This document shows, piece after piece, positions 17,694 through 32,977 of a stretch of 64,000 nucleotides of DNA (position 1 is its first letter; every line of letters begins with the position of its first letter). The notes beneath the pieces were generated by a model, which saw only the letters and a list, made by a program, of their open reading frames with translations, had not been told where the DNA came from and did no database searches. The DNA is taken from the NCBI GenBank assembly GCA_033485155.1, contig JAWQJJ010000001.1, positions 124,001 through 188,000 on the forward strand. The letters are read 5' to 3'. The stretch comes from Methanomassiliicoccus sp. Its GTDB lineage: Archaea; Thermoplasmatota; Thermoplasmata; Methanomassiliicoccales; Methanomassiliicoccaceae. A program made the translations under genes and the position numbers.

Positions 17694-18977
17694 TCAGGCC
17701 TTCTGAGCTTCGGCCTTGGCCTTTACCGGAGCCTTGGCCGCGCCCTCGGCCCGGGGGGCCTTGGCCGCCGCGGCCTTGCCCTCGACCTTGGCGCCCTCGG
17801 TAGCGGCCGGAGCGGCGTTGGGATCGGTGGCCTCCAGCAGGAGCTCGGAGATGTCAACGACCTTGATCTTGGCCCCGATCTGCTTGGCCCCAGCCTGCAG
17901 GTTGACCACGCAGAATGGGCAGGTGGTCACCAGGATCTCGGCCCCAGTAGCGACGGCCTCCTTGACCCTCTCCGCGGCGATGTTGACGGCCATGTCATTG
18001 AAGGCGCTCTTGAAGCCGCCTCCGGCGCCGCAGCAGCGGGAACCCTTGCGGTTGCGGGGCATCTCCACCAGCTCGATCCCGGGGATCTTCTTGATGACCT
18101 CACGGGGATCCTCGTACACTCCGCTGTGGCGGCCAAGGTGGCAAGGATCGTGGTAAGTGACCTTGGCCTTGATCTCCTTGGTGAACTTGAGCTTCTTCTC
18201 CTTGATCAGCCTGTTCACGTACTGCGAGAAGTGATATACCGGGAAGGTGGGGTTGGCGAAGTACCGGCCGTAGTCGGTAGAGGTGGTCTTGTAGCAACCT
18301 GCGCAGGTGGTGACCATAGCCTTGGCCCCCCTGTTCTCCACTTCCTGGATGTTATGCTGGGCGAACTCTGCGGTCAACCCCGTCTGTCCGGTCCTGAGGG
18401 CGGGAGAGGTGCAGCACCACTCGTCGCCTCCGAGGATGTCGAGCTTCACCCCGGCCCGGTTCAGCACGACGGCTCCGGCCTTGGCGATCTTCTGCATCCT
18501 GTAGGAACCGGTGCACCCGGCGAAGAAGATGATATCCGGACGGGCCTGGTGGGGTATCTCCGCGGGCCACCAGTCGCCCCGCTTCTCAGTCGGCTCGTTG
18601 TAGGGGTTGCGGTTCTCCTTGATGGCCTTGGCCAGCTTGGAGTGTACCGGGAGCGGCCCCTTGCCCTGGTCCACGACCCACTCGCGGACCTTCTCCCAGA
18701 AGTCACCGAACTCGATGTTGACGTGGCAGACGGTCTCGCATTGCGCGCAGCCGGTGCATCGGAACAGCGCCTCCACGAACTCATCGTCGACCTTGACTTT
18801 ACGGCCCAACAAAGTGTCCATGGGTGATCGCTTGGAGATCTGGCTCAGGTAGAATACCTTGCCCCGGGGGGTGATCGATTCCCAAGGGGTCTGCTCATAG
18901 GTGGGGCAGACGCGTACGCAATATCCGCACTGTAGACAAGCGAGAAGTTCCCTGTTGATCTCCGGCATCTTTACCAT
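17694..18977 (-). CDS. HdrD/GlcF-like iron-sulfur oxidoreductase subunit
   Basis: 427 residues. N-terminal bacterial-ferredoxin domain with two 4Fe-4S motifs (CLQCGYCVRVCP, residues 14-25, and CTGCAQCETVCHV, about 76-88), followed by two cysteine-rich CCG domains (GCTGS...CCTSP...CAGCYKT, and PCHLGRHSG...CCGAGGG...CPFC). This is the plan of heterodisulfide reductase HdrD and glycolate/lactate oxidase GlcF/LldF subunits. With no flavoprotein partner adjacent, the electron donor is uncertain. The last 50 residues are an Ala/Lys-rich low-complexity tail, unusual for the family. Confidence 0.88.
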   Translation of the reverse strand: MVKMPEINRELLACLQCGYCVRVCPTYEQTPWESITPRGKVFYLSQISKRSPMDTLLGRKVKVDDEFVEALFRCTGCAQCETVCHVNIEFGDFWEKVREWVVDQGKGPLPVHSKLAKAIKENRNPYNEPTEKRGDWWPAEIPHQARPDIIFFAGCTGSYRMQKIAKAGAVVLNRAGVKLDILGGDEWCCTSPALRTGQTGLTAEFAQHNIQEVENRGAKAMVTTCAGCYKTTSTDYGRYFANPTFPVYHFSQYVNRLIKEKKLKFTKEIKAKVTYHDPCHLGRHSGVYEDPREVIKKIPGIELVEMPRNRKGSRCCGAGGGFKSAFNDMAVNIAAERVKEAVATGAEILVTTCPFCVVNLQAGAKQIGAKIKVVDISELLLEATDPNAAPAATEGAKVEGKAAAAKAPRAEGAAKAPVKAKAEAQKA

Positions 18978-19075
18978 GGGTGCACCTCAGTGAAATGAAG
19001 AGAGCCTTTATCTCCTGTTAAGGGAGGCTTTGGAACGAGTGAATGGAAGAAAACTTCTTATAACTATCGTTGGGG

Positions 19076-19090
19076 CGGGAGCGCCTCCCG
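19076..19090. terminator. GC-rich hairpin between rubrerythrin-like and HdrD-like genes
   Basis: CGGGAG-CGC-CTCCCG, a perfect 6-bp stem. It lies after the stop of the rubrerythrin-like gene and before the HdrD-like start on the same strand, so it may end the first transcript or sit in the second's leader. No T-run on the minus strand directly after it. Confidence 0.3.
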
Positions 19091-19126
19091 AAAGGTGTCC
19101 AGCGTTTCCCGCCATGCGCCTGGCTC

Positions 19127-19672
19127 CTAACCGTCCAGGATGGGGTTGTAGCCATACCAGCTGCCTCCCCGCTTCAGGTATTCGAGGTTCTCCTCCAGGG
19201 TCCGTTGGTGCTCCCTCTCCCATTGGGCCAGCCTCTGCATCAGTATCTTCAGCTCGAGGTCCTGGGTCAGGCTGGCCACCTGCTCGTACATCCGCACCGA
19301 GGCCTTCTCCACTCCGATGGCCATTTCCACCGCCTTCATCTCGTCCTTGGCCGAGAGGCACGCCCCCTCGGGCAGGTCTGGGAACACCTTTCCAGGGACG
19401 ACATTGGCATACTCGGGGTCCGGGCGGATGGTCGTTACATCCTTCCCGGGGAAGATGCGGTCGATCTGCCTGGTCAGCCATGCCCGGTGCTCCTTTTCGT
19501 CCCGGGACAGGCTGCGCAGGATGAGCTTGCCCTCCCTGTCCTTGATGCACTCGCTCATCCGCTGGTAGAACTCCTTGCCGAACGTCTCCACCCTGATTGC
19601 CGCGGCCAGCAGGCCCAACTGCTTGTTGAGGCTCGCCTCATCGCTCTTCCAATCGCTCCGTTCAAAGCGCAT
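19127..19672 (-). CDS. Rubrerythrin-like ferritin-fold diiron protein
   Basis: 181 residues, a four-helix bundle by pattern. Two copies of an E...ExxH-type half-site are visible: AIRVETFGKEFYQ with SRDEKEHRAWL, and AIGVEKASVRMYE with AQWEREHQRTL, giving the carboxylates and histidines of a diiron centre. There is no C-terminal rubredoxin domain, so it is an erythrin-type protein. Probable role in peroxide or oxygen defence. Divergent from the Ehr complex operon, 220 bases apart. Confidence 0.82.
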   Translation of the reverse strand: MRFERSDWKSDEASLNKQLGLLAAAIRVETFGKEFYQRMSECIKDREGKLILRSLSRDEKEHRAWLTRQIDRIFPGKDVTTIRPDPEYANVVPGKVFPDLPEGACLSAKDEMKAVEMAIGVEKASVRMYEQVASLTQDLELKILMQRLAQWEREHQRTLEENLEYLKRGGSWYGYNPILDG

Positions 19673-19892: not shown

Positions 19893-21959
19893 ATGTACGG
19901 TCAGGAGCTCTTTCCTTTGCTCATCGGCGTGTCCCTGTTCGGGGCGCTGCTGGCCATCGGGACTGGGAGATGGGAGAGGGTCTGCCGGACCGCCCCCCTT
20001 ATCGCTGCGGCCGGGGCCTCCCTGATCGGGCTGCTCATCGCCATCGACGTCCTTCTCGGTAGCGGGGAGGTGACCTTTACCATTCCCACCGCTGTGGCCG
20101 CTCTGGGGCACTTCACCTTCTCCGTGGACCGCCTGTCCGCATACTTCATCCTGGCCATCTCCGCCCTGGCGCTGTGCGTCAGCATATATTCCATCGGCTA
20201 CACCCAGGAGTACTCCGGCCGTTACCGCCCGGAGACCATGGGTGCCTTGTTCAATCTATTCCTTCTCAGCCTGTACCTCGTGGTTACCGCCTCCAATGCC
20301 GTGCTGTTCCTCATCATGTGGGAGACCATGTCCCTCACCTCCTACCTCCTGGTGGTGTACGAGAACCGGAACCGGGAGAGCGAGTCCTCCGGCCTTCTAT
20401 ACTTGGTAATGACCCACCTGGGCACCGCCCTCATCACCGTGGCGTTCATCGTCATGTGGCTGTACACTCCGGGAGAGCATTCCTTCGACTTCGAGGCATT
20501 CCGCGAGCTGGGGGCCGGCGGGCTGCTCCCCGAGGCCGCCCGAACCCTGGCCTTCCTCCTCCTGCTCATCGGCTTCGGTACTAAGGCCGGCCTTGTTCCG
20601 CTGCATGTCTGGCTGCCGCAGGCTCACCCTGCCGCCCCCTCTAACGTGTCTGCGATGATGTCCGGAGTGATGGTGAAGACGGCGGTCTACATGCTCATCC
20701 GCTGTTACTTCGACTTCCTGGGCGTCACTAACTCATGGTGGGGGCTGGTCGTTCTCCTGGTCGCCTCCATCTCCGCCCTGGTTGGCGTCCTCTATGCTCT
20801 GATGGAGGAGGACATCAAGCGCGCCCTCGCCTACTCCACGGTGGAGAACATCGGCCTCATCTTCATCGGTCTGGGGGCGGCCATGGTGTTCCAGTCCTAC
20901 TATCTCGCCGATCCGGTGGCCAACGCCCACCTGGCCGACCTGGCCGCGTTGGCGCTGATCGCCGTGCTGTTCCACACCCTTGCCCACTCCCTGTTCAAGG
21001 GCCTGCTGTTCATGGGGGCCGGGTCGGTCATGTACGCTACCCACACTCGGGACCTGGAGGAGATGGGCGGGCTGGCCAAGCGGATGCCATGGACGGGCAT
21101 CCTGTTCTTCGTGGGGGCGCTGTCGATCTCCGCTATCCCTCCGTTCAGTGGCTTCGTGGGCGAGTGGCTCATGTTCCAGTCACTTCTCCTCACGCAGAGC
21201 ATCAGCGACCCCATGGTCAACGTGCTGCTGCCGGTGGCGGTCGCGATCCTCGCCCTGACCGGCGCCTTGGCCGCCGCTTGCTTCGTGCGAATATTCGGTG
21301 CGACCTTCCTCGCCAGGCCCAGGAGCAAGCACGCCGCGGAGGCCCAGGAGGTCCCCCGGACCATGCTGGCGGGGATGGGCATTGCCGCCGGGGCATCGGT
21401 CCTGCTGGGCGTCCTGTCCGTGTTAATCATCCCAACGATCGACAGCGTGACCTCCTCGGTGCTGGGAGTGAGCATCGCATCCAAGCTCGTCAACGGCCTG
21501 GTGCTTATGCCTCCCGCCGGGGAGTTCTCCAGCATGAGCCCCTTGGTGATCGGTGTGCTGCTGTTGTTCGCCGTGCCCTTCGCTCTCATCGTTACCCGCT
21601 ATCTGGGAGGCCGCCACCCGGTGGAGAGGGGTGATACCTGGGACTGCGGGACGCCCCTCAGCTCGAGGACGGAGTACTCCGCCGCCGGCTTCTCCAACCC
21701 CATCAACCGCATCTTCCGCTCCATCTACCGCCCCCACACCGAGGTACGCACCGAGTACACCTCCTCGACCCTCATCAAGAGAAAGATATCGTTCTCCAGC
21801 ACCATCGAACCGGTGTTCGAACGCTACCTTTACGCTCCAGTCGCCGCCCTGGTGATCGCCATCGCCCGGCGCGTTGGAATAATACAGAAGGGTAGCATCC
21901 AAGCGTACCTGGCGTACATCTTCGTCATCCTCCTCGCCCTGCTGGTGGTGTTCCGATGA
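19893..21959 (+). CDS. Ehr complex: HyfB-like proton-pumping membrane subunit
   Basis: 688 residues, first gene of a seven-gene operon. The antiporter-like domain (about 60-420) contains the conserved lysine helix segments FGTKAGLVPLHVWLPQAHPAAPSNVSAMMSGVMVKT and repeats typical of NuoL/HyfB. The C-terminal part carries the HyfB signature DTWDCG near residue 585 and a final membrane helix. In complex-I-like enzymes such subunits move H+ or Na+. A TATA-like TTTAATAAAT at about 19798-19807 lies upstream of the operon. Overlaps the next gene by 4 bases. Confidence 0.9.
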   Translation: MYGQELFPLLIGVSLFGALLAIGTGRWERVCRTAPLIAAAGASLIGLLIAIDVLLGSGEVTFTIPTAVAALGHFTFSVDRLSAYFILAISALALCVSIYSIGYTQEYSGRYRPETMGALFNLFLLSLYLVVTASNAVLFLIMWETMSLTSYLLVVYENRNRESESSGLLYLVMTHLGTALITVAFIVMWLYTPGEHSFDFEAFRELGAGGLLPEAARTLAFLLLLIGFGTKAGLVPLHVWLPQAHPAAPSNVSAMMSGVMVKTAVYMLIRCYFDFLGVTNSWWGLVVLLVASISALVGVLYALMEEDIKRALAYSTVENIGLIFIGLGAAMVFQSYYLADPVANAHLADLAALALIAVLFHTLAHSLFKGLLFMGAGSVMYATHTRDLEEMGGLAKRMPWTGILFFVGALSISAIPPFSGFVGEWLMFQSLLLTQSISDPMVNVLLPVAVAILALTGALAAACFVRIFGATFLARPRSKHAAEAQEVPRTMLAGMGIAAGASVLLGVLSVLIIPTIDSVTSSVLGVSIASKLVNGLVLMPPAGEFSSMSPLVIGVLLLFAVPFALIVTRYLGGRHPVERGDTWDCGTPLSSRTEYSAAGFSNPINRIFRSIYRPHTEVRTEYTSSTLIKRKISFSSTIEPVFERYLYAPVAALVIAIARRVGIIQKGSIQAYLAYIFVILLALLVVFR

Positions 21960-22891
21960 TCCTCGAGGTCGCCCAGTTCCTCCTGGTGCTTGCCATCGCC
22001 CCCCTGGTCACCGGAATCATCCGCAAGGCCAAGGCGCTGATGCAGAGCCGCCGGGGCCCCAGCGTACTCCAGCCCTATCGCGATCTGTGGAAGCTGCTGT
22101 GCAAGGGCTCGGTGGTCTCCAACGATGCCTCCTGGGTGTTCACAATCACCCCTTACGCATGCATCGCTGCGGTCACCGTTGCCGCCTTGTTGGTCCCGGT
22201 GGTCTATGCCGGTACCTTCGGCTTCCTCGGCGACCTAATCGTGCTCATATATCTGCTGGCGATGATGCGGTTCTTCATGGCCCTGGCCGCCCTGGATACC
22301 GGCTCGGCGTTCGGAGGGATGGGCTCCAGCCGGGAAATGTACATCTCCTCGGTGGTCGAGCCGACCATGCTGCTATCCATCTTCGCCATGGCCTTGGTGG
22401 CCGGAACGACCTCCCTGGCTAGCATCGCCGAGCGTATCGCCTCCAGCGGCCTCGACTTGATCTCCCCGGCATTGTTCCTGGCCGCGGCGGCGTTCTTCAT
22501 CGCCACCCTGGCGGAGAACGCCCGAGTTCCCTTCGACAACCCATCTACTCATCTTGAGCTCACAATGATCCACGAGGCCATGCTCCTGGAGTACTCTGGC
22601 AAGCAGCTGGCCCTCATGGAGATGGCCTCCATGACCAAGCTGGTCATCTTCCTGGCCATCATGTCCAACGTTTTCTTCCCGTGGGGCATCGCCACCACCG
22701 ACGACCCCATGGCCATCGCCGTCGGGCTAGCGGTTTTCCTGGGCAAGCTCATCCTCCTCGCGCTCATCATCGCCCTCATCGAGTCCTCCTTCTCCAAGAT
22801 GCGCCTGTTCCGCCTGCCCAACCTATTGACCGTGGCATTCATCCTGGCCCTCCTGGCCGTCATCTCGTTCTACATCTTGGGGGTGCTCTGA
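21956..22891 (+). CDS. Ehr complex: HyfC/NuoH-like membrane subunit
   Basis: 311 residues, about eight membrane helices. Family segments: KAKALMQSRRGPSVLQPYRDLWKLL at the N-terminus and RVPFDNPSTHLELTMIHEAMLLEYSG, the acidic loop of NuoH/HycD that faces the redox module. It connects the peripheral arm to the pumping subunits. ATG overlaps the stop of the preceding gene by 4 bases; its own TGA lies directly against the coding sequence of the next subunit. Confidence 0.92.
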   Translation: MILEVAQFLLVLAIAPLVTGIIRKAKALMQSRRGPSVLQPYRDLWKLLCKGSVVSNDASWVFTITPYACIAAVTVAALLVPVVYAGTFGFLGDLIVLIYLLAMMRFFMALAALDTGSAFGGMGSSREMYISSVVEPTMLLSIFAMALVAGTTSLASIAERIASSGLDLISPALFLAAAAFFIATLAENARVPFDNPSTHLELTMIHEAMLLEYSGKQLALMEMASMTKLVIFLAIMSNVFFPWGIATTDDPMAIAVGLAVFLGKLILLALIIALIESSFSKMRLFRLPNLLTVAFILALLAVISFYILGVL

Positions 22892-23557
22892 ACGGCTTTC
22901 TCCGCGGTCACCATCATCGACGGCCTCGCCGCTGCCATCCTGCTCACTACCTTTATCGGCATCGCCAGCAACCGCATGCTCCCGCTGATCCGCCTGTTCG
23001 CGCTGCAGTCGATTGCCCTGGGGTCCCTGGCCTTCACCGTGGCGTGGGTCACCGGCTCCGGCCACATCTACCTGGTGGCGGTGCTGACGGTGGCCATCAA
23101 GGGAGCGCTCATACCCTGGATGTTGATATACGTCATGAGGCAGATCAAGGTTGAGCGGGAGGTCGAGCCAGTGGTCAGCATCCCCCTCTCCCTGCTACTA
23201 TGTGGCGGTCTGACGGTGGTGGCCTTCTACATCACCCAACCCATCATCTTCACCGGCGGGGCCATCGACACGATCACCAAGAACTGCCTGGCGATCTCCA
23301 TCGCGGTCGTGTTCATCGGTTTCTTCACCATGATCTCGCGCAAGAAAGCCATCACCCAGATCATGGGCCTGCTGACTATGGAGAACGGGCTGTTCCTGGC
23401 CGCCATCTCGGTGACCTACGGTATGCCCTTGATCGTGGAGCTTGGCATATTCTTCGATATCCTGGTGGCGGTGCTTATCATGGGCCTCTTCGCCTTCCGC
23501 ATCAACCGTACCTTCGCCAGCGTTGACACGACCATCCTGAGGAGGCTGCGGGATTGA
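22892..23557 (+). CDS. Ehr complex: HyfE-like membrane subunit (non-canonical start)
   Basis: The coding frame runs from directly after the TGA of the HyfC-like gene to 23557. The first ATG is at 22976, but the 28 codons before it encode a good first membrane helix (TIIDGLAAAILLTTFIGIASNR), which HyfE proteins need. From 22892 the protein would be 221 residues, close to the family's usual length of about 215; from 22976 it would be 193 and lack that helix. The only codons in this stretch that could serve as starts are rare ones (ACG at 22892, ATC or CTG later), so either a non-AUG start coupled to the upstream stop is used or the annotation must accept a shortened protein. The C-terminal part (FTMISRKKAITQIMGLLTMENGLFL) matches HyfE. 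Confidence 0.8.
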   Translation, partial: TAFSAVTIIDGLAAAILLTTFIGIASNRMLPLIRLFALQSIALGSLAFTVAWVTGSGHIYLVAVLTVAIKGALIPWMLIYVMRQIKVEREVEPVVSIPLSLLLCGGLTVVAFYITQPIIFTGGAIDTITKNCLAISIAVVFIGFFTMISRKKAITQIMGLLTMENGLFLAAISVTYGMPLIVELGIFFDILVAVLIMGLFAFRINRTFASVDTTILRRLRD

Positions 23558-25023
23558 TCGAGTTCCTGCTCCTGATGCCGCTGATCGCCGCGGCGTTATG
23601 TTATCCCCTCAAGAAGCGGCGATTCATCGAGACGGCGGCGGTGGCCGGCTCAGCGGTCACCCTGGCGGTGGCATCGTATCTCTCCTATCAGGTGTTCGCA
23701 TTGGGCACCATCGACGAGGGCCTGCTGTACATGGACCCTTTCTCGGCCTACACCCTGATGTTGGTCTCCTTCGTCGGCCTGCTGGCGGTGATTTACTCAC
23801 TATCTTACATCGGCAGGGAGAACGATGAGGGGATAATCACCACCCTGAAGCTCAGGAACTACTACCTGTTCTTCCAGCTGTTCGTCTTCACCATGCTCCT
23901 GGTGTGCGTATCCAATAATCTGGGGATCATGTGGATCGCCATTGAGGGCACCACCCTGGCCTCGGCCTACCTGGTCGGACTGTACGACCGGGAGACCTCC
24001 GTAGAGGCAGCGTGGAAGTACCTGGTCATCTGCTCGGTGGGCATCACCCTCGCCCTCCTGGGTATCATCATGGTCTACGCCTCTTCCATCCAGTGGCTGG
24101 GAGAATCGTCGTCGGGCCTAGATTGGTCCACCCTGATGTCGGTGGCCGGCTCGCTTGACCCCACCCTGCTGAAGATCGCGTTCATCTTCGTTCTGGTGGG
24201 CTACGGGACCAAGGTCGGTCTGGCGCCGATGCACACCTGGTTGCCGGATGCACACTCGCAGGCCCCCACCCCCGTGTCCGCTCTGCTGTCCGGCGTGCTG
24301 CTGAACTGCGCCATGTACGGGATCCTGAGGTTCCACATGATCGTGTCCGCCTCCTCCCTGGGTCCCGGCTTCTCGGGTGGGCTCCTCCTGCTCTTTGGCC
24401 TCATCTCGCTGGGCATCGCCGCGGCGTACATCGTCATGTCCAAGGATTACAAGCGCATGCTGGCGTATTCCTCGATCGAACACATGGGGATCATCGCCGT
24501 CGGCTTCGGTTTCGGCGGTTACTGGGGCATCTTCGGGGCCCTGTTCCACATGCTCAACCACGCGCTGGCCAAGACGCTGATGTTCTTCGGCGCGGGCAAC
24601 ATCCTCCACCGGCTGAGGACCAAGGACATCGATCAGGTCCGGGGGGTCCTAAAGATCCTTCCAGCTACCGGGGTCCTGTTCATCGGCGGCGCGTTGGCGA
24701 TCACCGGATGCCCGCCTTTCTCCCTCTTCCTGAGCGAGTTCATGGTGCTGGTGGGAGGCATCAGTGCGGGCCAGAGCGTCGGCGTGGTGCTATACCTTCT
24801 GCTGTTGGTCATCGTCTTCGCGGCCTTCATGTACCATGTGGGGCGCATGGTGTTCGGTGAGCCGGCCGATGTTGGCGGAGAGGAGGGGGAGAGGAGCTGG
24901 GTGGACACCGCTCTCATGACCGCGCTCCTCCTATCCATCCTGGCGATGGGACTCTATCTCCCGGCGTTCCTCAATGACGCGCTGCAACAGATCATCCAGC
25001 TGTTCCCGGGAGGTAGCTCATGA
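23554..25023 (+). CDS. Ehr complex: HyfF-like proton-pumping membrane subunit
   Basis: 489 residues, start TTG at 23554 overlapping the preceding stop (TTGA). Antiporter-like domain with [36 protein letters not shown] and [15 protein letters not shown], typical of HyfF/NuoN-type subunits. About 13-14 membrane helices. Second potential ion-translocating subunit of this complex, besides the 19893 gene. Confidence 0.9.
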
Positions 25024-26606
25024 GTGAGGACCAGGTGCGGGAGGTGCTCCGCAGGATGCCCGCCTCGGTGATGGTGCGGGTCGACCAGTACGAAGTGAAG
25101 GGAAAGGAGCTGCGAATGGTCGTGAGACCTGATGCTATGGTCCCTCTTGCCCTTCACCTGCGCCAGGAGCACAAGGCGAGGCTGGTGACTCTGCACGCCA
25201 CCGACGACCGGGCTCTTGAGGGGGTCTTCAAGCTCCACCTGCTCATGGTTCCCCTGGGCATGGACGCGTTCGTCTCGGCGACCACCTCTCTCGGGCTGGG
25301 GGAATGGAGGTACGAGTCCCTGACCCCGTCCATCAACGACGCGGACTGGTATGAGCGGGAGATCCAGGACATGTTCGGTCTGATGGCTATCGGCCACCCT
25401 GACCCCCGGCCGCTGGCGCTCCATGAGGACTGGCCGGAGGGCCGGTACCCGCTGCGCAAGGACTTCCCGCTGGAGGAACGTCCTCCACGGGTGAACGGTG
25501 AGTACCATTTCACCAAGGTGGAAGGCGAGGGGGTGTACGAGATTCCGGTAGGGCCGGTGCACGCCGGGGTCATTGAACCAGGACACTTCCGCTTCTCCGT
25601 CGCCGGCGAGCCCATAATCAATCTGGAAGTTCGCCTAGGGTATGTGCACAGAGGGATCGAGAAGCTATCTGAGTCCACTCCCTACACCAAGGGAGTGTAC
25701 CTGGCGGAGCGCATCTCCGGGGACAACTCCATGGCCCACTCCACCGCGTACTGCCAGGCGGTGGAATCCCTCGCCTCCTGCCCGGTGCCGGAGCGGGCGG
25801 AGTACATCAGAACGGTCATGCTGGAGCTGGAGCGGTTATACAACCTGTTGGGAGACATCGCGGGAATCGCCCTGGACACCGCCCTGACCGTCGCCGCGGC
25901 CAACGGGTACGTGCTGAGGGAGAAGGCCATGAACCTCAACGAGTGCCTCACCGGCTCCCGCCTCCTGCGCTCGGTGAACGTGCTGGGCGGGGTGCGCAGA
26001 GACCTTACCTCCAACGATCGGGAGAAGGTCCTTGCTACCATGGTCAAGCTGAAGCTGGAGTTCGAGGACCTGGTGACCCTCATGACAACCTCCCCCTCGA
26101 TGATGGACCGGGTTGAGACCACCGGTGTGCTAACCAGGGAGATGGCCATGGATCTCAATGTGGTAGGCCCGGCGGCCCGGGCCAGTGGGGTGGACCGAGA
26201 CGTGCGGCGGGATCATCCCTACGCCGCCTACGATAGGCTCGACTTCCTTGTGCCTACTCATTCCTCGGGCGATGTCAACGCCCGCATGAGGGTGAAGATG
26301 GGTGAGGTCCGGGAGTCGTTCTCACTTATCGACCAGGCCCTCGACCGCATGCCCCCTGGCCCGATAAGGGGGAAGCTAGGGACAGGATCCCTGGGACAGA
26401 TCGCCTATTCCCTGGTCGAATCGCCGAGGGGGGAGATCGTCCACTGGATGATGGCCGGCCGAGGCTCGCCGGCACGTCACAAGGTGAGGGACGCCTCCTT
26501 CTGCAATTGGCTGGCGATGGAGCAGGCAGTACTGGGCAATATCGTCCCCGATTTCCCGCTCATCAATAAGAGCTTCAACCTGTCCTATTCGGGCAATGAC
26601 CTGTGA
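25020..26606 (+). CDS. Ehr complex: HycE/HyfG-like large subunit with fused NuoC domain, lacking Ni-Fe cysteines
   Basis: 528 residues. Residues 1-150 are a NuoC/30-kDa domain ([24 protein letters not shown]); the rest is a NuoD/hydrogenase large-subunit domain ([34 protein letters not shown]). At the first Ni-Fe site, where hydrogenases have CxxC, it reads [17 protein letters not shown]: both cysteines are gone. The C-terminus ([14 protein letters not shown]) lacks the DPCxxC pair. All four metal ligands are therefore absent, so it cannot hold a Ni-Fe centre. This is the definition of the Ehr class, relatives of group 4 hydrogenases and complex I with unknown substrate. ATG overlaps the preceding stop. 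Confidence 0.92.
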
Positions 26607-26615
26607 GGTGTCACG

Positions 26616-26936
26616 ATGTTCAAGTTCCTAAAGCTCGGGGTGCTCAAGAACGGGGTGCAGACCCGCAACTATCCGCAGGAGCGGAATCCTCCTTTCGACG
26701 CCTTTCTCGGTCTGCCGGCGGTGGATGCGGAAGCGTGCGACCGATGCTCCGACTGCGTCCACACCTGCCCCACCCAGGCCATAACCGTGCTTCCGACTGG
26801 CATCGAGATATCGGCGGAGCGGTGTATCTTCTGCGCGGCGTGCGCCGAGGCCTGCGAAGCCATCACCATGAGCAAACGGTTCGAGCTGGCCTCCCGCTCC
26901 CGGGAGGGCCTGAAGGTGGTGTACCGTCATGGATGA
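26616..26936 (+). CDS. Ehr complex: HyfH/NuoI-like 2x[4Fe-4S] ferredoxin subunit
   Basis: 106 residues. Two complete 4Fe-4S motifs: CDRCSDCVHTCP and CIFCAACAEACE. N-terminal basic stretch (MFKFLKLGVLKNGVQTRNYP) matches the family. It links the small subunit to the electron donor, probably ferredoxin. Good ribosome site GAGGTG lies 8 bases before the ATG; its end overlaps the next start by 8 bases. Confidence 0.92.
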   Translation: MFKFLKLGVLKNGVQTRNYPQERNPPFDAFLGLPAVDAEACDRCSDCVHTCPTQAITVLPTGIEISAERCIFCAACAEACEAITMSKRFELASRSREGLKVVYRHG

Positions 26937-27390
26937 GGCGACCGAGAGGCTAGGAGAGGAATTGAAGGCCAGGATCATGAAGGCCTTCGGCCGCTCCCTC
27001 TCCATTCGGGAGGTCGACGCTGGCTCCTGCAACGGCTGTGAGGTCGAGGTCAACGCCCTCACCAACGCCATCCACGACGTGGAGCGCTTCGGTCTGCACA
27101 TCGTGGCCTCCCCCCGCCACGCGGACATGCTGTTGGTCACCGGGCCGGTGACCCGTGGCATGTTGCCCGCCCTGCTGCAAACCTACAAGGCGACGCCTTC
27201 CCCTAAGATGGTGGTAGCCATGGGCTCCTGCGCCATATCCGGAGGCATCTTCTGCGGCACCTACGCCACCCTCGACGGCGTGGACAAGATATTGCCGGTG
27301 GACGTGTACATACCAGGTTGTCCCCCTCGCCCCCAGGCGATCATCCAGGGAATATTACTGGCAGTGGAACGGTGGGAAGCTAAGGCGTGA
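26929..27390 (+). CDS. Ehr complex: HyfI/NuoB-like small subunit
   Basis: 153 residues. The cluster N2-type cysteines are intact: GSCNGCEVEV, GSCAISGG and PGCPPRP. It therefore still binds the proximal 4Fe-4S cluster even though the partner large subunit has lost its Ni-Fe ligands, so the complex can still pass electrons to something other than protons at a Ni-Fe site. Last gene of the operon; its TGA touches the stop of the convergent stress-protein gene. Confidence 0.93.
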   Translation: MDEATERLGEELKARIMKAFGRSLSIREVDAGSCNGCEVEVNALTNAIHDVERFGLHIVASPRHADMLLVTGPVTRGMLPALLQTYKATPSPKMVVAMGSCAISGGIFCGTYATLDGVDKILPVDVYIPGCPPRPQAIIQGILLAVERWEAKA

Positions 27391-27819
27391 TCACTTCACG
27401 ACGATGACGGTGCAGCCGGAGTTGCGCACCACGTACTCGGAAACCGAGCCGATAAGGACCCGATCCAGCACCGTTTTCCCCGAAGTGCCCACGATGATGG
27501 CCCCAGCCTTGACCCGCTCCGCGGTGGAGACGATGTTCTGGTATGGCGAACCCCCCTCCAGCAAGGTAGTCACGTCCAGGTCCCTGTCCCCCGCCTGGCG
27601 CTTGAGGTCCGACAGGACCCTCATCCCTTCCTTGATGAGGTTCGACCGGTCCTCATCGTTCTTGGTGCTGACCACATACAAGATGAAGAGCTTCGACGAG
27701 GTCAGCTTGGCCATCTCCATGGCGAAGGCGATGGCCTTGGCCGAGTGAGGTTTCCCGTCCGTGGCCAAGAGCAGGTTCCTTCCCTGCACCTGCCCCTCCG
27801 AGGTTGAGGGCTCCTCCAT
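27391..27819 (-). CDS. Universal stress protein (UspA family)
   Basis: 142 residues. Rossmann-like Usp fold: NLLLATDGKPHSAKAIAFAMEMAK at the N-terminus and the ATP-binding motif GTSGKTVLDRVLIGSVSEYVV at the C-terminus, so it is of the nucleotide-binding type. It lies between the two hydrogenase-like operons, with its stop directly against that of the Ehr small subunit and its start 122 bases from the Ech operon. A regulatory link to these complexes is possible but is only inferred from position. Confidence 0.9.
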   Translation of the reverse strand: MEEPSTSEGQVQGRNLLLATDGKPHSAKAIAFAMEMAKLTSSKLFILYVVSTKNDEDRSNLIKEGMRVLSDLKRQAGDRDLDVTTLLEGGSPYQNIVSTAERVKAGAIIVGTSGKTVLDRVLIGSVSEYVVRNSGCTVIVVK

Positions 27820-27941: not shown

Positions 27942-29819
27942 ATGAGCACGGGAGAGCTGCTTGCGGTCCTTCTTTTCCTTATCCCAGTCATAGGCGCGGC
28001 GGTCGTCCTCATCGTCCGGCGCCGGGGAGCCATCGTCTGGACTGTGGTCTTTGTGTCCGCTATCCTGGTCTTGGCGTCCATCGGCCTCCTGGCATACATG
28101 GCGTCCACCTCGTTCGAGGTACTGGCCATCGGATCGGAGGACCTTTATCCCATGGGTCCGGCGATGATAATCATCGGTGTGGCGCTCGCGGGGCTGTTCA
28201 TCGTCATCGGCTGGAGGATCAGGAGCCCCTTCATTGTCACTGTGGCCACCATAAATCTGGTGCTGGACCTGGGATTGGAGTCCTGGACGGACTTCCGGGA
28301 GGCGGCTCCGGCAGTGCTGATCGACAACCTGGCGCTCATCCTGATCCTCATCACCTCTGTGGTAGGATCGATCATCGCCATCTATGCCCTTCGCTACATG
28401 AGGGACGATACTCACCAGCCCCGGTTCTTCGCCGTCACCCTGCTCTTCCTGGGAAGCATGAACGGGGCGGTTCTGTGCAACGACATGCTGTGGTTGGTCC
28501 TGTTCTGGGACGTCACCACCCTGTGCTCATTCCTGCTCATAGGCCATACCGGCACGGAGGAGGCCCAGAAGGCGGCCAGGAGAGCGTTGGGGATCACCCT
28601 GGCGGGAGCCACCGCGCTGATCGTCGGAGCGATGCTGGCATTCTACTACTACGGTACCCAGTCGGTGCAGGAGGTCCCCCTGGCTGGCCTCGACGGCTTG
28701 GCCCTGATGCCCCTCGCCCTCATGGCGGTGGCGGCGTTCACCAAGTCCGCTCAGCTCCCCTTCCAGTCTTGGCTTCTGGGAGCTATGGTCGCCCCCACCC
28801 CGGTTTCCGCGCTGCTACACAGCGCCACCATGGTCAACCTGGGAGTATATCTCCTCCTCAGATTATCGCCCAGCATCGTGGAGGCCACCGCCATAAACTG
28901 GCTGGTGGCGCTGGTCGGCGGGGCCAGTTTCCTCGCCTCCTCGATATTGGCCATGACCCAGAGCAATGCCAAGCGGGTGCTGGCCTGGTCCACTGTTGGC
29001 AACCTCGGACTGATCACCATGTGCGTGGGGGTATCGACTCCCCTGGCCATCACCGCGGGGGTCATCTTGCTGTTCTACCACTCCATCTCCAAGGCCCTCA
29101 TGTTCCTGTCCGTGGGGGCGGCCAAGGAGAGCCTGGGGAGCGAGGACATCGAGGACATGCAGGGGATGTGGGTAACCATGCCCTTCGTCTCCGCCGCCAT
29201 CTTCATCGGGGTCGTGACCATCGTGCTGCCCCCCTTTGGGATGTTCGCCTCCAAGTGGATTATCAGCTCCGCGGCCACCGCGTTCCCGCTTCTCATCTTC
29301 CTGCTGGGGGTGGGCTTCGCGAGCATAGTGGTCTATTACTTCAAGTGGATCGGCAACATCCTCTCTGCGGTACCGGCCCGGCAGACGGGGCTCCGACGGG
29401 ACCCCCTGGCCCCGAATTACAAGTGGACTCTGGGGGCTCTCATGGTCGGGGCGGTGGGCTTGTCGGCCCTCATCGGCCCGGTGGTGCGGTTCCTGGTGGA
29501 GCCGTTCATCGAGCGCTATTTTACCCTGCCGGTGGGGACCAATGATCTGAACCTGTTCACCGCCTCTGGTGAGTTCCCGGTGTTCATCTTCCTGTTGCTC
29601 ACCGGCATCATCTTCGTAGGCCTCAGTCTCCTTATCCATCCCGGGGCCGAGGAGATCTCCAAGCCCTACGCTAGCGGAGAGGATTTCGTGTTCGAGTCGC
29701 GGGGCAGTTACTTCTTCGGCGAAGCCTCGGTGCGCCAAGGCATCGCCCTATCCGAGGGCACAGGCATCCTGCTGGTCGCCCTCCTCCTGGCTATTCCGTT
29801 GTTGCTGGAGGTGGCGTGA
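27942..29819 (+). CDS. echA: Ech hydrogenase subunit A (NuoL-like membrane subunit)
   Basis: 625 residues, about 16 membrane helices. Contains the antiporter-like lysine segments [39 protein letters not shown] and AKRVLAWSTVGNLGLI. This is the ion-translocating subunit of the energy-converting hydrogenase. First of six tightly packed genes in the order A-B-C-D-E-F known from methanogen Ech operons. Overlaps the next gene at its stop. Confidence 0.9.
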   Translation: MSTGELLAVLLFLIPVIGAAVVLIVRRRGAIVWTVVFVSAILVLASIGLLAYMASTSFEVLAIGSEDLYPMGPAMIIIGVALAGLFIVIGWRIRSPFIVTVATINLVLDLGLESWTDFREAAPAVLIDNLALILILITSVVGSIIAIYALRYMRDDTHQPRFFAVTLLFLGSMNGAVLCNDMLWLVLFWDVTTLCSFLLIGHTGTEEAQKAARRALGITLAGATALIVGAMLAFYYYGTQSVQEVPLAGLDGLALMPLALMAVAAFTKSAQLPFQSWLLGAMVAPTPVSALLHSATMVNLGVYLLLRLSPSIVEATAINWLVALVGGASFLASSILAMTQSNAKRVLAWSTVGNLGLITMCVGVSTPLAITAGVILLFYHSISKALMFLSVGAAKESLGSEDIEDMQGMWVTMPFVSAAIFIGVVTIVLPPFGMFASKWIISSAATAFPLLIFLLGVGFASIVVYYFKWIGNILSAVPARQTGLRRDPLAPNYKWTLGALMVGAVGLSALIGPVVRFLVEPFIERYFTLPVGTNDLNLFTASGEFPVFIFLLLTGIIFVGLSLLIHPGAEEISKPYASGEDFVFESRGSYFFGEASVRQGIALSEGTGILLVALLLAIPLLLEVA

Positions 29820-30682
29820 TGGAGGTGATCACCTACATCCTGCAGTTGCTGATCATCATCCTCGCCCCCCTGGCGGTAGGCCTAGGGGCCGGTATCGATA
29901 GGAAGATCACGGCCCGTATGCAGAATCGCCTGGGGCCGCCGGTGGTGCAGCCGTTCTACGACATCGGGAAACTGCTGGCCAAGCGCCCAATGTTGCTTAG
30001 CCGCCTCCAGGTGGTATTCGCCGGGGCCGCCCTGCTGTTCCACGCCGCCGCCCTGGCACTGTTCGTGGCGGGAGGCGATCTTATCGTGGCCTTCTTCGTC
30101 TCCGGGACGGGGTCGATCTGTCTGGTGATGGGGGCGTTCTCCGCCCGCTCCCCCTATTCCTACATCGGGGGGCAGAGGGAGCTGCTGGCGATCCTGGCCT
30201 ATGAGCCGGTACTCTTCCTCGTGGTGCTGGCCATCGGCCTGGAGACCTCCTTCCTGGTCAGCGGGATAGGAGGCGGGTTGCTCATCGCGCTACCACTGGT
30301 CCTCCTCGCCCTGATACCGGTGCTGGTCATCCTGCTGGAGAAATCGCCCTTCGACGTGCCCACCGCTCACCAGGAGATAATGTCCGGGCCGTACGTGGAG
30401 TACTCAGGCCCCTACCTGGCGATAATGGAGGTGGCAAGGTGGTTCCAGCTGGCATTCGTCTTCGGCCTGGTGACCCTGTTCTTCTGGAGCGCCGACCCGG
30501 TTGTGTCGGCCGGAGGAAAGCTGGCCCTGGCCTTCGCGGTGTTGTTCGTCACCATCATCATCGACAACATCACAGCCCGGCTGACCCGCGGGAGGATGGT
30601 CCGGTTCATGCTGACGGTGGGCGTAGGTCTGGTGGCGATCAACCTACTGGTCCTCTTCGTGATCGGACAGGGGGCGATATGA
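29819..30682 (+). CDS. echB: Ech hydrogenase subunit B (NuoH-like membrane subunit)
   Basis: 287 residues from the ATG at 29819; a GTG at 29816 is the alternative. Segments KITARMQNRLGPPVVQPFYDIGKLL and SPFDVPTAHQEIMSGPYVEYSG identify the NuoH/EchB family. It anchors the soluble hydrogenase module to the membrane. Confidence 0.92.
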   Translation: MEVITYILQLLIIILAPLAVGLGAGIDRKITARMQNRLGPPVVQPFYDIGKLLAKRPMLLSRLQVVFAGAALLFHAAALALFVAGGDLIVAFFVSGTGSICLVMGAFSARSPYSYIGGQRELLAILAYEPVLFLVVLAIGLETSFLVSGIGGGLLIALPLVLLALIPVLVILLEKSPFDVPTAHQEIMSGPYVEYSGPYLAIMEVARWFQLAFVFGLVTLFFWSADPVVSAGGKLALAFAVLFVTIIIDNITARLTRGRMVRFMLTVGVGLVAINLLVLFVIGQGAI

Positions 30683-31134
30683 TGACGTTGGAAGAAAAGA
30701 TGCGGATGAGATCGCCGTGGATCATGCATTTCGATACCGGTTCGTGCAACGGGTGCGACCTGGAGGTTTGGGCTCTGCTCACGCCGCGCTATGACGTGGA
30801 AAGGTTCGGGGCGGTCAACCGGGCCAACCCCAAGCAGGCCGATGTCCTCCTCGTCACCGGTCCCGTGACCAAGCGGTGCGAGGACCGGCTGAGGAACCTG
30901 TACGAGCAGACGCCCGAGCCCAAGCTGGTCATCGCCTGCGGGGACTGCGCATCCACTGGCGCGCCTTTCCACAACTGCTACAACGTCAACGGAGGCGTGG
31001 ACAAGGTGATTCCAGTGGACGTCTATGTGCCGGGGTGCGCCTGCCGGCCGGAGGCTCTCATCGACGCCCTAGTGTTGGGACTGTCGATGTGGAGGGAGAA
31101 AGTTCAGAAGATGGTCGGGGAGGAGGGGCGATGA
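30679..31134 (+). CDS. echC: Ech hydrogenase small subunit C
   Basis: 151 residues from the ATG at 30679, which overlaps the echB stop as ATGA (a second ATG follows directly). Cysteine motifs GSCNGCDLEV, ACGDCASTG and PGCACRPE bind the proximal 4Fe-4S cluster that feeds the Ni-Fe site of the large subunit. Overlaps echD by 4 bases. Confidence 0.93.
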   Translation: MMTLEEKMRMRSPWIMHFDTGSCNGCDLEVWALLTPRYDVERFGAVNRANPKQADVLLVTGPVTKRCEDRLRNLYEQTPEPKLVIACGDCASTGAPFHNCYNVNGGVDKVIPVDVYVPGCACRPEALIDALVLGLSMWREKVQKMVGEEGR

Positions 31135-31514
31135 CCGAGGCTGCCCCGCCGGACTTTGACCGTGAGGCCTACCGGGGGCTGCGGAAGATGGTCGGCCAGA
31201 TGATAGATTCCGGGGCTCGGATGATCGCCATCGTGGCCAGGGAGAGGGATGATGGAGTCATGGAGCTTATCTACGTGTTCGACCGGGACAGGAGACTGGC
31301 CGATCTCCGCTTCCTCATCCTCCCGGAGTGGGAGATCGACTCGGTGGCAGACCTGTACAAGGGCGCCTTGACCCTGGAGAGGGAGATCGTCGATCTCTTC
31401 GGCCTCAGGATCAAGGGGGTCCGCCCTGGCCTGTTCCTGGTGGAGGGCAAGAGCCCGGTGGCCCCCCTGCGCAAGAGGAAGGCCCCGGCGCCCGGAGGGG
31501 ATGCCGATGGGTAA
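31131..31514 (+). CDS. echD: Ech hydrogenase subunit D (NuoC-like)
   Basis: 127 residues. Weakly conserved 30-kDa-type domain with YKGALTLEREIVDLFGLRIKG, matching the ReIxDlFGl core of NuoC proteins. In Ech it is a separate gene, in contrast to the NuoC fusion in the neighbouring Ehr large subunit. The basic, Pro/Ala-rich C-terminus overlaps the start of echE by 14 bases. Confidence 0.85.
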   Translation: MTEAAPPDFDREAYRGLRKMVGQMIDSGARMIAIVARERDDGVMELIYVFDRDRRLADLRFLILPEWEIDSVADLYKGALTLEREIVDLFGLRIKGVRPGLFLVEGKSPVAPLRKRKAPAPGGDADG

Positions 31515-32583
31515 GGCGACAACGATCCCGTTCGGGCCGCAGCACGCCGCTTTCCTCGAGCCGCTCAACGTCAAGCTCACGTTGGACGAGGAGACAGTGG
31601 TGGGGGCGGAGCTGAACCAGGGATACAATCACCGGGGGATGGAGTACGCCCTCTCCCTCGATTACAAGAAGTCCCAGTATCTGGCCGAGAGGGTGTGTGG
31701 GATTTGCTCCTACCATCATTCCTCGGCGTATTGTCAGGGCGTGGAAGCGATCTACGGCCTAGACGTCCCGGCACGGGCCAAGCTCATCCGCACCATCATG
31801 ATGGAGTGCCAGCGCCTGACCTCCCACCTCCTGGCGCTTGGCCATATCGCCGAAGCCGTGGGGTACGAGAACCTGTTCATGCAGTGCTTCCGGGAACGGG
31901 AGTACGTGATGATGCTGGTCAATCGCATCTCGGGTAACCGCGTCCATTACTCCATGAACGTGGTAGGTGGGGTCAAGAGGGATTTGGATGGGGAGAGGGT
32001 CAGGGATATTCAGGCGACAATGCGGGAGCTGCGTCCCCGCCTGGAGGAGCTACAGCGGGTGTTCGGACGGGATGGCACTCTGTCCAAGCGCACCCGGGGA
32101 GTGGGCAAACTGTCGAAGCGAGAGGCCAATGAATGGGGTACCGTCGGCCCAGTGGCACGGGCCTCGGGTATCGACCGGGACATCCGTCAGGACGGGTTCG
32201 CCGCGTACTCTCTACTCAGGTTCGCCCCGGTAGTCCGGGAAGAGGGGGACTGCTACGCCCGAATGATGGTGCGCATGGACGAGTGCCTGCGGGCGGTGGA
32301 TATAATCGAGCAGAGCCTCCCCCTGCTGGAGGATGGGCCGGTGGCGGTCCAGGTCAAGGGTCACCCCAAGGGTGAGTCCTTCTCCCGGGTGGAGGCTCCC
32401 CGGGGCGAGCTGATGTACTACATCAATGCCAAGGGTACGCTGGCGCTAGAGCGCATCAAGCTCAGGACCCCCGCGCTGATGAACGTGGCGTCGTTGCTGG
32501 CCATGCTGCCCGGATGCCAACTTGCGGACGTGCCCACGATCACGGTGTCGGTGGACCCCTGTATCTGTTGTACGGATCGGTGA
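31501..32583 (+). CDS. echE: Ech hydrogenase Ni-Fe large subunit E
   Basis: 360 residues from ATG 31501 (ATG 31507 is equally possible). Both Ni-Fe cysteine pairs are intact: ERVCGICSYHHSSAYC (Cys66 and Cys69) and DPCICC at the very end (Cys354 and Cys357). Only three residues (TDR) follow the last cysteine, so there is no C-terminal extension to be removed by a maturation protease, as known for Ech-type large subunits. This is therefore an active-looking H2-evolving or H2-oxidising subunit. Confidence 0.95.
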   Translation: MPMGKATTIPFGPQHAAFLEPLNVKLTLDEETVVGAELNQGYNHRGMEYALSLDYKKSQYLAERVCGICSYHHSSAYCQGVEAIYGLDVPARAKLIRTIMMECQRLTSHLLALGHIAEAVGYENLFMQCFREREYVMMLVNRISGNRVHYSMNVVGGVKRDLDGERVRDIQATMRELRPRLEELQRVFGRDGTLSKRTRGVGKLSKREANEWGTVGPVARASGIDRDIRQDGFAAYSLLRFAPVVREEGDCYARMMVRMDECLRAVDIIEQSLPLLEDGPVAVQVKGHPKGESFSRVEAPRGELMYYINAKGTLALERIKLRTPALMNVASLLAMLPGCQLADVPTITVSVDPCICCTDR

Positions 32584-32587
32584 TCCC

Positions 32588-32977
32588 ATGTCCATGCTGT
32601 CCTCTTCGCTCAAGAACTTGTTCCGCCGGCCGTTCACCACGCGGTACCCCAACGAGCCGGCGTCGATCCCCCCGGGCAACCGGGGGCGGGTACTCTATGA
32701 TATGTCCAAGTGCATCTTCTGCCGTAAGTGCGAGAGGAGCTGTCCCACCAACGCCATCATCACCAACAAGGACGCCAAGACTCAGACTGTGATACGGCAC
32801 CGGTGCATCTCTTGCAACACCTGCGTGGAGGTCTGCCCTACGCAGACCATCTCCATGGCCGAGGAGTACTCCAAGCCGGACACCGCACCCACCGTCAACG
32901 TGTTCTCGGTCGACCTCCCCCGGCACGAGTACCGGGTTGAACACCTTCCACGCTACGAGGGTCACAAGAAGGAGTAG
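32588..32977 (+). CDS. echF: Ech hydrogenase ferredoxin subunit F
   Basis: 129 residues from the ATG at 32588, 4 bases after the echE stop. Two 4Fe-4S motifs: CIFCRKCERSCP and CISCNTCVEVCP. It carries electrons between soluble ferredoxin and the small subunit. Last gene of the Ech operon. Confidence 0.93.
   Translation: MSMLSSSLKNLFRRPFTTRYPNEPASIPPGNRGRVLYDMSKCIFCRKCERSCPTNAIITNKDAKTQTVIRHRCISCNTCVEVCPTQTISMAEEYSKPDTAPTVNVFSVDLPRHEYRVEHLPRYEGHKKE

Follow-up and report, generated by a model that had tools for sequence, protein, structure and literature searches.

Within a 64,000-nucleotide stretch of the genome of the archaeon Methanomassiliicoccus sp. (assembly GCA_033485155.1, contig JAWQJJ010000001.1, positions 124,001 to 188,000; this whole stretch is referred to as the window, and positions are given within it), seven co-directional genes on the forward strand (19893–27390) almost certainly encode an energy-converting-hydrogenase-related (Ehr) complex. 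Subunits, gene order, missing Ni-Fe ligands, phylogeny and structure agree on this assignment, which was also that of the initial annotation. The Ehr type is already known from many phyla, the order Methanomassiliicoccales included, and the complex here is a genuine and conserved one. As judged from alignments, what is new is a pocket signature in the large subunit, EhrL, consisting of two aspartates that are absent from 16 sister sequences which keep their cysteines, together with a retained proton-transfer glutamate, E186.

Ehr was reported in the Methanomassiliicoccales by Speth and Orphan (2018; PMC6147122) and is also found in Nitrospirales (PMC12342949), comammox bacteria (PMC10284858) and ammonia-oxidising archaea (PMC10432482), as well as in Geobacter, whose Ehr subunits were present in higher amounts with formate (PMC7894505). 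The literature on Ehr also includes Coppi (2005) and Marreiros et al. (2013), as represented in papers citing them. No demonstrated function for Ehr is given in PMC6147122, PMC12342949, PMC10284858, PMC10432482 or PMC7894505. The statement that the role of the complex in this organism is undescribed thus stands for its function, but not for the complex itself, given the report from the order. The window complex shares with known Ehr the subunit set, gene order, missing Ni-Fe cysteines and pocket signature, with no substantive difference; EhrF and EhrS are encoded by separate genes here, whereas they are fused in several other Ehr lineages.

The large subunit and its former active site

The gene ehrL (25020–26606, forward strand) encodes a NuoC+NuoD fusion of 528 aa resembling HycE and HyfG, with 7z0s_E as best PDB match (E 1e-90). 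Group 4 [NiFe] hydrogenases are recognised by two CxxC motifs that bind Ni-Fe. EhrL is related to this group and has neither motif; in alignments with HycE and MbhL all four ligands are replaced (C to S233, C to N236, C to S522 and C to G525), which bears out the original claim of a large subunit without any Ni-Fe ligand. Where HycE and MbhL have the N-terminal motif [D/E]RVCGIC or similar, EhrL has ERISGDN (residues 230–236, 25707–25727, including S233, G234 and D235), and the protein ends at the former C-terminal DPCxxC (26565–26603), with no peptide extension. The same kind of cysteine replacement was seen in 28 relatives of the order (one of these sequences stops before the C-terminal motif) and across a broad phylum sample. 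With a dN/dS of 0.17 against its nearest relative, ehrL is a maintained gene under purifying selection, and it follows from both observations that the missing cysteines are no artefact.

An AlphaFold model of EhrL (pLDDT 90) matched HycE of formate hydrogenlyase best (7z0s_E, TM 0.94), followed by NuoCD of complex I (TM 0.89). The initial annotation had called for an alignment and a tree, and in the tree obtained EhrL groups with sequences from reported Ehr carriers, namely Nitrospira, ammonia-oxidising archaea and the candidate phyla radiation (CPR). The Ehr sequences of the order form a single clade (support 100/98). One change is sufficient between the Ehr and the cysteine-keeping rows, but a single origin of the cysteine loss is unproven, as the branch separating the two is weakly supported (60/74).

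The pocket was compared among complete rows from a scan of the collection plus the window, 67 of them without and 16 with a cysteine at column 233. Both D235 and D286 are present in 66 of the 67 rows lacking C233, while all 16 cysteine-keeping sisters have A or V and G at these positions. The lone exception, from Anaerospora hongkongensis (L152), is an intermediate with S, C, S and C at the ligand positions, that is with two of the four cysteines changed to serine, and with V235 and G286. Position 186 is Glu in every row of both sets (67/67 and 16/16); Glu186 of EhrL (25575–25577, forward strand) is the equivalent of the proton-transfer glutamate E21 of MbhL. Asp286 (25875–25877, forward strand), Gly in the sisters, was aligned by HMMER to Asp139 of Thermus thermophilus Nqo4 (2fug_4), the residue that is ion-paired to His38 in the quinone site of complex I (PMC5552823). 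The head-group residues by which complex I and Fpo-type quinone reductases are recognised, Nqo4 His38 and Tyr87, correspond to I185 and G234 in EhrL and are thus both replaced.

Three known systems were considered for comparison. Hydrogenase-4 and formate hydrogenlyase type enzymes, with the cysteine-keeping sister clade, resemble Ehr in structure, in gene order and in E186, H189 and R470, and differ in that Ehr has lost all four ligands and has D235 and D286. Complex I (NuoD) and the Fpo-like complex share with Ehr the fold, the lack of a Ni-Fe site and the equivalent of Asp139; however, Ehr is without equivalents of His38 and Tyr87 and is nearer to the hydrogenases in both sequence and structure. 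The membrane-bound sulfane reductase of Pyrococcus (MBS, formerly Mbx) is likewise complex-I-like with a lost hydrogenase function. Its marks are a shortened small-subunit motif that gives a proximal cluster with three cysteines, a large subunit with two cysteines left, and the absence of E21 (PMC7684303), none of which applies to the window complex: MBS keeps two of four cysteines, whereas Ehr has lost all four and keeps both the E21 equivalent and four cluster cysteines. Since the ligands are lost, His38 and Tyr87 are replaced and the E21 equivalent is kept, unlike in MBS, the EhrL site is neither a hydrogenase site, a complex I site nor an MBS site.

Genes, wiring and neighbours of the ehr operon

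The ends of the seven genes mostly overlap or nearly abut, and in NCBIfam- and Pfam-type family searches their products matched hydrogenase-4/formate-hydrogenlyase and complex I families, confirming the seven-gene complex originally proposed. In forward-strand order, ehrA (19893–21959, 688 aa) encodes a HyfB-like large antiporter-type pump subunit, matching hydrogenase 4 subunit B with 705 bits, which exceeds the family cut-off. It is followed by ehrB (21956–22891, 311 aa; PF00146, E 5e-47) for a NuoH/HyfC-like membrane anchor, ehrC (22976–23557, 193 aa as called; NCBIfam hydrogenase 4 membrane subunit) for a HyfE-like membrane subunit and ehrD (23554–25023, 489 aa; HyfF families, up to 525 bits) for a HyfF-like antiporter-type pump subunit. 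Downstream of ehrL lie ehrF (26616–26936, 106 aa; Fer4 families), HyfH/NuoI-like with two 4Fe-4S motifs, and ehrS (26929–27390, 153 aa; PF01058), encoding the NuoB/HyfI-like proximal-cluster subunit. Homologues of NuoB, C, D, H and I and two antiporter-like subunits are thereby found in one cluster, as in Ehr generally. It should also be noted that the called start of ehrC at 22976 is probably some 28 codons too late, because homologous-looking in-frame residues extend upstream (22892–22976) without a standard start codon; the true start would lie at about 22892, with a non-standard start codon.

EhrF contains eight cysteines in two complete four-cysteine motifs that align with HyfH, HycF and NuoI. 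EhrS keeps its cluster cysteines (34, 37, 101 and 131), its CxxC spacing is of the hydrogenase type as in HyfI, HycG and MbhJ, and its best PDB matches are MbhJ (6cfw_J) and HycG (7z0s_G). Both antiporter-like subunits retain the Glu/Lys/Glu series: EhrA has all equivalents of NuoM E144, K234, K265 and E407, and EhrD has the pump residues E, K, H and E, with N at the K265 position as in Escherichia coli HyfF. The intact small subunit and pumps described in the initial annotation were therefore recovered. From these motifs, a complex of the fully wired type is predicted: EhrF would hold two 4Fe-4S clusters and EhrS a single proximal cluster, alongside a hydrogenase-fold EhrL without Ni-Fe ligands, a membrane anchor and two intact antiporter-type pumps. 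An insertion in a loop of EhrB, THLELTMIHEAMLLEYSG, was considered as an Ehr hallmark and rejected, as it is common to Ehr and the cysteine-keeping sisters. Two tandem HyfF-like pump genes were observed in some Ehr operons of Verrucomicrobiota and Nitrospirota (L104, L117, L097, L121 and L149).

Upstream of ehr and on the reverse strand lie genes for an HdrD-like protein with 4Fe-4S and two CCG domains (17694–18977; CCG 8e-40), which is not part of Ehr, and for a rubrerythrin-like protein paired with it (19127–19672; PF02915). This pair (17694–19672) is also kept in an Ehr-less family of the order (f6). A universal stress protein gene adjoins ehrS downstream (27391–27819, reverse strand; PF00582). 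By synteny, this arrangement, with HdrD and rubrerythrin divergent upstream and the stress protein downstream, is found in families f1 and f3, and the stress-protein gene also adjoins ehrS in the loci of family f2 and in Methanoperedens relatives, being conserved in the loci of the order inspected. Further downstream a separate and genuine Ech [NiFe] hydrogenase operon, echA–F (27942–32977, forward strand), was identified from translation and family matches, with its CGIC and DPCICC motifs intact. Clustering of flanking genes detected no constant companion of Ehr in the different phyla, the widest cluster covering 13 loci. In one locus (L150:6939–9140), ehrL and ehrS are separated by a SulP-type transporter that carries STAS and EIIA domains; SulP transporters near or inside some Ehr operons (L150, L118 and L111) were set aside, the cases being too few.

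Ehr relatives without the iron–sulfur wire

The wiring was compared by inspecting Ehr operon stretches across phyla. The inspected Ehr operons of Nitrospirota, Chloroflexota (non-hydrogenase type), Methylomirabilota and Myxococcota contain no ferredoxin-type motif, the Nitrospirota operons being without EhrF entirely, and in Verrucomicrobiota and ammonia-oxidising archaea a degenerate ferredoxin-type motif is fused to EhrS. The four cluster cysteines of EhrS are replaced by [DT][AC]DD in eight genomes that belong to a candidate-phyla-type clade (L109, L139, L147 and L151, and the genomes of L138, L116, L158 and L159; EhrS at L175–L180, L182 and L185). The stretches inspected for this clade also had no ferredoxin-type motif, and no recognisable redox centre is left in them. 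In four of the eight genomes the cluster-free EhrS is the sole NuoB-family protein found.

The EhrL pocket of this clade is unchanged except for G525A in L139, the kept residues being H181, E186, H189, S233, G234, D235, D286, E467, R470, W497, S522 and D527. The pump residues of EhrA are intact in the five members checked, while some EhrD pumps vary. The tree includes four cluster-free members, which group as a single clade nested within Ehr, so the loss of the EhrS cluster looks derived. The paper on CPR Ehr (PMC7304191) reports the missing large-subunit cysteines and not a loss of EhrS cysteines, and a targeted literature search returned no published report of the latter.

Mechanism and alternative explanations

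The most likely mechanism, preferred with some caution, is that of a ferredoxin-driven ion pump with a non-quinone acceptor. The host is a methanogen (mcrA is present), and in such methanogens ferredoxin would be reduced by the bifurcating MvhADG-HdrABC system. Reduced ferredoxin would feed EhrF, from which electrons would pass to the proximal cluster of EhrS; S233-G234-D235, D286, E186 and the SYSGND terminus would make up a metal-free pocket in which a small acceptor could then take up electrons and protons, and the released energy would drive ion export by EhrB, EhrA and EhrD. With no metal site present, protons do not appear to be the acceptor, nor, probably, does a quinone in a complex-I-like binding mode play this part. 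The ferredoxin input through the HyfH-like subunit that was suggested initially is reasonable here, but it is not general, since Nitrospirota, Chloroflexota and candidate-phyla loci are without this subunit. Several points weigh against this mechanism. The cluster-free relatives keep the same pocket, and its conserved role may be non-reductive; the donor and the direction are inferred, and the complex may instead work the other way round, using the ion gradient to reduce ferredoxin; and of the 61 genomes searched in the order, some of them incomplete, 22 have no detected Ehr.

It is conceivable, though rather unlikely, that the EhrL pocket is not a redox site, and that ion movement in the antiporter-type subunits is either the consequence or the cause of ligand binding, hydration or protonation in that pocket, with the wire dispensable. 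The retention of the pocket residues in the eight cluster-free genomes fits this explanation, as do the intact EhrA pump residues in five of them and the Nitrospirota operons without EhrF. However, the window organism keeps the whole wire (12 cysteines), which is unexpected if electrons are unneeded, and the cluster-free clade may have acquired a new function. The broader proposal that Ehr is no oxidoreductase, its pocket coupling a non-redox event (small-ligand binding, hydration or protonation) to complex-I-type ion pumping, is similarly held to be doubtful; if true, the iron–sulfur wire in the window would be an ancestral or regulatory input.

A further explanation, regarded as improbable, is that Ehr and the neighbouring HdrD act together as a ferredoxin:CoM-S-S-CoB oxidoreductase, a role that has been suggested for the order's Fpo-like complex. 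HdrD and rubrerythrin do adjoin ehr divergently in two families, and HdrD of M. luminyensis (WP_019178460), assigned to the ferredoxin:heterodisulfide reaction with the Fpo-like complex (PMC7374477), is numbered shortly before echA1 (WP_019178471; PMC7374477, PMC4153887), which suggests the same locus. On the other hand, an HdrD orthologue (54–100% identity) occurs in nearly all 61 genomes, Ehr-less ones included; in G007 it neighbours Ech with no Ehr, in family f2 it is located away from Ehr, and bacterial Ehr loci show no recurrent partner of this kind. Because HdrD is near-universal in the order it is not Ehr-specific, and it was rejected as a dedicated partner.

Reduction of a lipid-soluble quinone or phenazine-like carrier by Ehr is very improbable. 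Many other Ehr hosts use quinones, D286 aligns with the quinone-site Asp139 of complex I, and a UbiA-UbiE-UbiD cluster, with matches to TIGR01475, TIGR01934 and TIGR03701 above their cut-offs, is present in the genome of the organism itself. This cluster (L172:6014–11942; G000:C3, about 76513–82441) lies next to an SsuA/NMT1-type ABC importer, with which it possibly salvages an aromatic compound from which a quinone-like lipid is made. Against a quinone stand the non-conservation of His38 and Tyr87 and the genome distribution: Ehr is present in 39 of the 61 genomes (including one added genome whose ehrA runs off the contig end), as opposed to eight for UbiD, with UbiA above cut-off in the same eight. 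As these genes are missing in 32 of the 39 Ehr-bearing genomes, the single-contig G023, G027 and G041 among them, a quinone made by the UbiA/UbiD route is not generally required and is unlikely as the general acceptor in the order; other lipid carriers are conceivable, and some of the 61 genomes are incomplete. Family searches of the own genome also detected no HdrE/NarI-type cytochrome b and no MqnA/D. Together these results do not favour the quinone or methanophenazine acceptors that had been put forward for testing. A residual or unrecognised hydrogenase, a sequencing error or a decaying gene, with hydrogenase homology alone in its favour, is hardly credible beside the same kind of replacement in dozens more Ehr rows across phyla, the dN/dS of 0.17 and the genuine Ech operon adjacent.

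Ehr occurs in many bacteria and archaea, nitrifiers and methanogens among them. With the pocket signature, the evidence against a general need for one quinone route in the order and the relatives devoid of recognisable redox centres, the question of the Ehr acceptor is narrowed to sharper, testable alternatives, with implications for the coupling between the cytoplasmic arm of complex I and its ion pumping.

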